Source: Bugula neritina
Lineage: Eukaryota; Bryozoa; Gymnolaemata; Cheilostomatida; Bugulidae
NCBI GenBank assembly: GCA_964035545.1
Contig: OZ037771.1
Location: 2,939,128 to 2,989,127, forward strand
Reading direction: 5' to 3'
DNA: 50,000 nucleotides
Shown here piece by piece: positions 18,558 through 19,388 of this stretch. Under the pieces are notes generated by a model that did no database searches, had not been told where the DNA came from, and was given only the letters and a program-made list of their open reading frames with translations. Each line of letters opens with the position of its first letter. Positions within the stretch are counted from its first letter, which is position 1. The translations under genes and the position numbers were made by a program.

Positions 18558-18655
18558 GTAAAATGAGTGTTTATAAAACGTTACTAGAGTGCTCTATAGA
18601 AATAAATCCAGAGCGTAAACATTAGAAGAAATAAAATGAGATTTGATTAATATAA

Positions 18656-18718
18656 TGGCATTTATTACTAGTAGTTTCGTACACAAGAACAATGTGCACT
18701 CGTCAGATAAATTAGCCA
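18656..18718 (-). ncRNA. Hammerhead ribozyme motif, left arm (type I)
   Basis: This is the mirror copy of the motif at 19198-19260, read on the minus strand. Core CTGACGA, a 7-bp helix II and GAAA are all present, with the predicted cleavage site just after position 18666 on the minus strand. Because the arms are identical, both copies stand or fall together. Confidence 0.72.
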
Positions 18719-19197
18719 CTATGGTTGCTTACAACTATAAATAATGTAATATGTAAATATACACAGATTAAAGCTAGAAGATCAAAATATAACAAAAAGG
18801 TAGCATTGTAATTAATTGGCTATGTTACAGCATTCTTGAGTAGAAATTTACTACTATGTCTGCATATGGATAAAAAGTCATAGCGCTTATTGAGGGAAGA
18901 CAACTGTGGCTTATAAAGAATGAAAAATTTTTCCCATGAGCATAGCAACAACAACACTAAAATCTGTCAGCTATGCTCATGGGAAAAATTTTTCATTCTT
19001 TATAAGCCACAGTTGTCTTCCCTCAATAAGCGCTATGACTTTTTATCCATATGCAGACATAGTAGTAAATTTCTACTCAAGAATGCTGTAACATAGCCAA
19101 TTAATTACAATGCTACCTTTTTGTTATATTTTGATCTTCTAGCTTTAATCTGTGTATATTTACATATTACATTATTTATAGTTGTAAGCAACCATAG

Positions 19198-19260
19198 TGG
19201 CTAATTTATCTGACGAGTGCACATTGTTCTTGTGTACGAAACTACTAGTAATAAATGCCA
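19198..19260 (+). ncRNA. Hammerhead ribozyme motif, right arm (type I)
   Basis: All conserved parts are readable in order. Helix I 5' strand is ATTTAT (19204-19209), the core CTGACGA (19210-19216), helix II GTGCACA (19217-19223) pairing with TGTGTAC (19231-19237) across the loop TTGTTCT, then GAAA (19238-19241). Helix III is a 3-bp stem (ACT with AGT, loop ACT), followed by the cleavage nucleotide A at 19250 and helix I 3' strand ATAAAT (19251-19256). Helix I extends past a TA bulge with TGGC (19198-19201) and GCCA (19257-19260). A very short helix III is typical of hammerheads in Penelope-like elements and animal retrozymes. Cleavage activity is predicted, not shown. Confidence 0.75.
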
Positions 19261-19292
19261 TTATATTAATCAAATCTCATTTTATTTCTTCT

Positions 19293-19388
19293 AATATATA
19301 TATATATATATATATATATATATATATATATATATATATATATATATATATATATATATATATATATATATATATATATATATATATA
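19293..19388. repeat. (TA)n tract right of the palindrome
   Basis: A pure TA run of about 96 bases directly abuts the right palindrome arm. The sequence after it (a G-rich stretch, then GTTTATAA) resembles what follows the left AT run, so the flanks of the two runs may be related. Confidence 0.95.

Follow-up and report, generated by a model that had tools for sequence, protein, structure and literature searches.

The palindrome at positions 18622-19294 of the window (the whole 50,000-nucleotide stretch of Bugula neritina DNA analysed here) is a single, fresh insertion, between (AT)n tracts, of a Neptune-like Penelope-like element (PLE). It is best explained, with a probability that we put at about three in four, by a single PLE insertion in which both target strands primed copying from twin hairpins and the two cDNAs were joined head to head. 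The insertion in the window is ordinary and its element belongs to a known kind; the interesting part is a strict one-tail rule among such insertions, a duplicated start hairpin and the sharing of that hairpin with a small retrozyme.

Copies of the element end in one of two ways (unit positions carry the prefix E): at E2363 followed directly by (TA)n, termed the A end, or at E2428 followed by (TA)n, termed the T end, which adds a tail of 65 nt. The insertion in the window comprises both types:

18511-18557, no strand: (AT)n microsatellite of the left flank, probable insertion target; the same dinucleotide adjoins A and T ends
18558-18621, minus strand: tail of 64-65 nt, unit E2364-2428, marking the T end of the left copy (T-type end, 98% identity to the tail of L027)
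18586-18614, minus strand: bulged reverse transcription (RT) start hairpin GCTC-TGGA-loop-TCTA-ta-GAGC, then ACTCT
18558-18946, minus strand: left copy, T type, unit E2039-2428
18656-18718, minus strand: left-copy hammerhead, the mirror image of 19198-19260, for which a cut is predicted on the 3' side of 18666
18941-18946, no strand: head-to-head junction, 6 nt common to both copies (microhomology)
18947-18969, plus strand: 23-nt non-palindromic centre, where the right copy extends further 5' (E2011) than the left (E2039)
18941-19294, plus strand: right copy, A type, unit E2011-2363, without tail
19198-19260, plus strand: right-copy hammerhead, predicted cut after A19250
19295-19388, no strand: (AT)n of the right flank

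The arms, 18622-18946 (minus) and 18970-19294 (plus), are exact reverse complements without a single mismatch, and the two opposed hammerheads described in the initial annotation are both present. Its palindrome is confirmed as an observation, with two corrections: perfection belongs to the arms and not to the whole 673 bp, which includes the non-palindromic centre, and the exactly complementary arms count 325 nt each, not 324. On the left the element runs 64-65 nt beyond the palindrome before (AT)n begins, and on the right it stops at 19294; that annotation missed this left tail, the significance of the two (AT)n flanks and the existence of a family across the genome.

The window has recurring paralogous segments at about 30, 37-38, 43-44 and 48-49 kb, and 31-bp tandem repeats of one sequence lie beside repeated gene segments (17514-17660, 30692-30823, 38251-38643 and 44091-44204). 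The palindrome is absent from the paralogous places within the window; these also lack about 570 bp beside the palindrome as well as (AT)n, so that they do not settle whether (AT)n stood at the site before insertion. The window further holds a cluster of TGF-beta-like ligand ORFs (Pfam PF00019; 20981-21742, 23670-24422 (-) and 27533-28336 (+)), one of them with a partial domain match only, and LINE-like reverse transcriptase fragments (9002-9916 and 34123-35385 (+)), with a Pfam RVT_1 match in 34123-34617 and the others recognised by resemblance.

Each hammerhead combines CTGACGA, a 7-bp helix II with one G-U pair, GAAA, a 3-bp helix III and a 6-bp helix I extended by TGGC:GCCA. The window motif has the conserved core, the three helices and the NUH triplet before the predicted cut that characterise type I, and the cut is predicted at the position first proposed, after A19250, the triplet being GUA. 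In the covariance-model check suggested in the initial annotation, the Rfam Hammerhead_1 model (RF00163) matches both strands at 28.3 bits (E 1e-4 in a 721-nt search), below the gathering score of 34. A scan of the window at gathering score gave no Rfam match, and the strongest sub-threshold matches over the palindrome are microRNA families fitting a long hairpin. A genome-wide search with RF00163 returned 0 matches, likewise in the control genomes, so that its negative outcome carries no information. When an arm is folded alone, the minimum-energy fold is not the hammerhead and lies 1.1 kcal/mol lower (-12.6 versus -11.5). Comparison among related sequences argues that the hammerhead is not a chance match, because 98 of the 110 hammerheads parsed in the fetched loci (a set that leaves out L001-L008 and L065, which are repeats of other loci) belong to the family of the window element and because families with other stem sequences still keep the paired hammerhead fold. 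A very short helix III had been taken as a mark of PLEs and animal retrozymes, and the hammerheads do sit in Neptune-like PLE copies. It had also been supposed that a palindromic transcript would bury the ribozyme; in the predicted fold all 63 of 63 hammerhead bases pair with the other arm, and forcing the hammerhead to form costs about 100 kcal/mol in the ViennaRNA model. No result supports the further suggestion that the palindrome functions to trap or release the ribozyme.

The search for a Penelope reverse transcriptase that had been called for found, in the genome's family, an ORF of 706 aa with an RT fold and a Cys-rich stretch, which places it among the PLE reverse transcriptases (the structure search covered mainly residues 148-474). 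Residues C564, C566, C572 and C578, C-terminal of the RT part, are invariant in 11 aligned proteins; the definition used for the Cys residues follows the accessible text of PMC3846280. A search against the sequences of solved structures returned 0 matches, and in whole-protein searches Pfam GIY-YIG matched the relative P0002 (E 1e-5) and gave no match in P0001. The elements show both tandem (L027, L019) and inverted (25 of 35) pLTR arrangements with an optional tail, which in inverted pairs is on one copy. The initial annotation saw in the palindrome a derivative of an element that is normally directly repeated; head-to-head pairs are instead the commonest product and nothing exceptional, and its interpretation as a whole is partly supported. 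A search for related loci in viral contigs gave 11 pattern matches, none of which was confirmed.

Further copies were found, as anticipated, throughout the 216-Mb genome: a query without the tail recovered 35 elements at 32 loci. Two-sided elements consist of two overlapping 5'-truncated copies head to head, and all 25 that could be resolved with this query are T/A, none T/T or A/A, an outcome with a probability of 3e-8 if half of pairs were T/A by chance. Eight of the 35 are one-sided within the fetched stretch (A ends in L021, L030, L038, L039, L040 and L043; T ends in the tandem L019 and L027), and two could not be classified (L011, with its left end missing, and L024b). L037, found by protein, is T/A too. 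Among the best 40 of 230 candidates for a tail-containing query, the matches listed include 41 of T type, no two of which form a head-to-head pair, and 22 of A type, each adjoining a T. The latter belong to 22 short elements at 21 loci (L044-L064), all T/A, which were picked for the A partner and illustrate the rule without testing it; L055b, with its A end at E2372, is an exception in end position. In total, 48 two-sided family-1 elements of differing lengths and flanks have the same fixed ends, which, like the inverted overlap and the presence of one tail in each resolved pair, can be read directly in the assembled copies. Of 26 family-1 elements, 10 have the T copy on the left, and in 16 the T copy exceeds its partner in length.

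The rule extends to family B, which has about 51% amino acid identity and a tail of 79 nt: 12 of 12 resolved pairs are T/A, in a ranking where an A/A pair would stand low and could be missed. Matches to a family B query ending at the T end stop at 256-260 (T) or 181 (A), with one fragment at 78. Among the best 40 of 298 candidates, 10 of 12 A matches have a head-to-head T partner and two lack one among the matches listed; one further pair lies in L036 and another is formed by C6 with L070, and in one of the listed pairs the partners are 5.7 kb apart with another copy between them. Two convergent arrangements, a T pair at C8:7805737/7806053 and a fragment beside C3:12321317, are read as neighbouring insertions.

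Both the A and the T sites are followed by the motif GCTC-stem-loop-stem-NN-GAGC[AT]CT, in which the bulged NN is tt in 9 of 12 hairpins and which occurs twice in five PLE families and twice in the 271-bp retrozyme described below. RT starts read from copy ends lie 3-6 nt before the hairpin: AAT/GTTTAC-GCTC and TAT/TTTAC-GCTC in family 1, ATATA/ATT-GCTC and TTAT/TAAA-GCTC in family B and TTAT/TATT-GCTC in family D, the slash marking the start. Families C, D and E are represented by one to three loci each, and the starts of C, E and the A site of D were placed by position. In an exact register with 0 and 2 bulged bases, the inner stem has at least two pairs in 12 of 12 hairpins, and the total of 60 inner pairs compares with 8.2 (sd 3.4) in inner-base shuffles, 0 of 2000 of which reach it. 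Other registers give 1-10 pairs, apart from one with 48 in which the same helix lacks just its first pair, and the hairpin register is found in 21 of 132 control spans. The limits of two hairpins, RZ1 and EA, were set by hand, and leaving both out gives 44 pairs versus 6.7, in 10 of 10 hairpins. By folding energy, four of the 12 (1T, CA, CT and EA) are no better than shuffles and the sum over all 12 has a z of -5.2, mainly from RZ1, RZ2 and ET; folded with flanks, two of eight (1T and CA) take another fold, and single z-scores range from -0.5 to -3.4. The outer GCTC:GAGC is changed to ACTC:GAGT in family E.

Across 632,412 nt (both strands) there are 116 GAGC[AT]CT sites, 84 of them with the structure, and 83 of these 84 lie in PLE or retrozyme sequence as judged by context; the scanned loci had been fetched for PLEs, so this specificity holds within these loci and not genome-wide. 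In at least three more copies within PLEs or retrozymes, the motif does not pass the register test. A relic of a second PLE family is also present in the window itself at 47650-47900 (+), with a hammerhead-like core at 47766 (different stems) and a start hairpin at 47852-47886.

The retrozyme is a tandem repeat of about 271 bp, present at many sites and scored in the best 40 of 620 candidates, whose monomers carry a different type I hammerhead (CTGATGAGGGG..., triplet GUC). Its end reads GAGATAT followed by (AT)n or, in tandem, by TAC-GCTC of the same bulged hairpin, and a second hairpin copy lies further along; one pair of the stem varies as T-A, T-G or C-G among copies. Copies sharing the hairpin and the (AT)n end with resident PLEs are found at L026:3885-4500, L012:3504, L032:2749 and L040:3036-3340. 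No head-to-head retrozyme pair occurs among the matches listed from the best 40 of 620 candidates. Mobilisation of retrozymes by PLEs has been proposed from their co-existence, tandem copies and shared type I hammerheads (accessible text of PMC7229834 and PMC7761336). The common hairpin, a site that can be mutated, and the common (AT)n end are sequence evidence beyond these arguments and suggest that the 271-bp retrozyme is probably mobilised by the same machinery as the PLEs.

The two arms of a locus are alike, with 54 mismatches in 8579 shared positions (0.63%) over 24 loci, the window arms having 0 differences over 324 compared positions. At the same positions, distances to copies of other loci have means of 1.1-5.2%, mostly near 2%. 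No comparison with another copy equals the closeness of a locus' own arms in 9 of the 24 loci, and a further 4 have just one or two that do; in these 13 loci the arms resemble each other more than they resemble almost any other copy. The remaining 11 are not clearly closer; in L009a, L009b, L010, L011, L022 and L031 more than one third of the comparisons with other copies are as close as the arms, and the arms of L009a differ by 6.8%. Gene conversion between inverted arms could be another cause of the likeness. Where the two copies meet, at least 2 nt are common in 15 of 24 junctions, against 16% for random blunt joins, and filler is present in 6. Because of this excess of microhomology and the filler, both legible in the copies themselves, the junction pattern is that of end joining of two cDNAs.

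The arms also bear on the state of the template. All 52 of 52 arms cross the hammerhead cut at E2318, as do, by their ends, 44 of 44 short-element arms, a statement that covers elements found with the tail-free and tail-containing queries, both of which reach upstream of the cut. The templates of these arms were thus uncut at this position at the time of copying, a point of relevance to the debated role of PLE hammerheads. A cut template would place the A partner within about 20 nt; in the 40 T copies scored the nearest A partner is never closer than 54 nt, a weak test in that farther partners mostly fall outside the matches listed. Among the 22 T copies of the short elements, which all begin in the interval E2255-2266, 19 do so within 2260-2264; their flanks differ, and 17 distinct junction strings occur among the 23 read. 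The query began at E2264, which could hide shorter elements and cannot create the pile-up on its left. Perhaps the RNA has a defined 5' terminus at about E2262, a short way upstream of the hammerhead. A promoter near E2262 was considered and is not claimed, the context comprising only a weak TATTTATA and CA.

We propose that the protein, as RT and endonuclease, would open both strands of an (AT)n stretch, and that each 3' end would anneal to an AT-ending stretch of RNA just upstream of a hairpin, one at the A site (E2363) and the other at the T site (E2428). Extension would run towards the RNA 5' end; two RT protomers would probably each copy the same RNA, and the resulting cDNAs would be joined head to head via short microhomology. 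The product would be a pair of inverted copies that overlap, only one of them tailed and both with the hammerhead uncut. In vitro, the purified anole PLE protein PAc cuts the two DNA strands and extends both; its RT begins at a pair of neighbouring internal sites, which set the tail, and unprocessed RNA is used (accessible text of PMC11167929). The genome pattern seen here matches these facts. PLE integration is little understood, and the anole system left open the relation of the two ends of one insertion. Each two-sided insertion here records both ends, and the one-tail rule with the duplicated hairpin makes a concrete testable scheme.

In its fullest form, which we offer tentatively as quite possible though short of probable, this integration is ordered: an RT dimer bound to the two hairpin copies in one RNA would prime both DNA ends, so that every two-sided insertion receives one tailed and one tailless copy. 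Internal, hairpin-directed initiation would dispense with the RNA 3' end, and small circular retrozyme RNAs that carry the hairpin could thereby be mobilised in trans. The alternative that survives best, which we regard as doubtful, gives each DNA end its own ribonucleoprotein and its own RNA, the T/A rule then arising from asymmetry of the protein dimer and not from two hairpins on one RNA. PAc is a predicted dimer (accessible text of PMC11167929), alike arms attest only to alike templates, and 11 of 24 loci lack clearly closer arms; yet independent RNAs that each contain both sites would also yield T/T and A/A pairs unless the dimer forbids them, and such pairs number 0 of 25 here and 0 of 12 in family B.

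Much less probable is a snap-back, in which one cDNA folds on itself and is copied back into an inverted repeat. This would yield alike arms and a short centre, but the second arm would then have the whole tail and never be the longer one; in the observed pairs it is precisely the tail that one arm is missing, and of 26 elements just 16 have the tailed arm as the longer of the two. L1 twin priming yields largely non-overlapping parts of an RNA. An inverted 5' part of one RNA, made in that way, would accommodate second priming inside the RNA and microhomology joins and is hardly credible for these elements, being already contradicted by their overlap: both copies hold the 3' region and share up to 1233 nt. 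Fold-back artefacts exist in long reads, and the assembly sequence is the sole source here, but an artefact or a later inverted duplication of a single insertion is scarcely to be expected given 48 two-sided family-1 elements of varied length and flanks that agree in their fixed ends, the diversity of short-element junctions and the differences between arms in 20 of 24 loci. We retain paired priming of the two DNA ends from twin hairpins, and infer that a single RNA, bound by a dimer at its two hairpins, was the template of both cDNAs.

Inverted pLTRs, a described PLE feature (accessible text of PMC3846280), as well as optional tails, internal initiation and PLE hammerheads are already known. 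The strict one-tail rule, the duplicated start hairpin and its sharing with retrozymes were not found in the literature searched, a body of accessible texts with few subscription papers. The Penelope elements of Adineta vaga, such as Pen2a, have inverted pLTRs and an optional tail, and the accessible part of that account describes no duplicated start hairpin (PMC3846280); in contrast, each resolved pair here has just one tailed copy, the tail measuring 65 or 79 nt, and the (AT)n flanks make target duplications unreadable. Known PLE hammerheads are likewise of type I with a minimal helix III and lie in the pLTR (accessible text of PMC7761336), whereas those described here represent new families with a 3-nt loop on the 3-bp helix III and the triplet GUA. 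The 271-bp repeat fits the metazoan non-LTR retrozymes, which are tandem monomers of 150-450 bp with a type I hammerhead (accessible text of PMC7229834), and differs in sharing an RT-start hairpin and an (AT)n end with PLEs. Another close parallel is the anole PAc system (accessible text of PMC11167929), with two adjacent internal RT starts defining a tail, an AT-rich target, a hammerhead upstream of the starts, and cutting and extension of both DNA strands, the cutting being deduced from sequence in the present case. PAc starts in an AC-rich stem-loop inside the ORF, whereas here both starts lie before the ATG and each is followed by its own copy of the bulged hairpin; single insertions can also be read at both ends.
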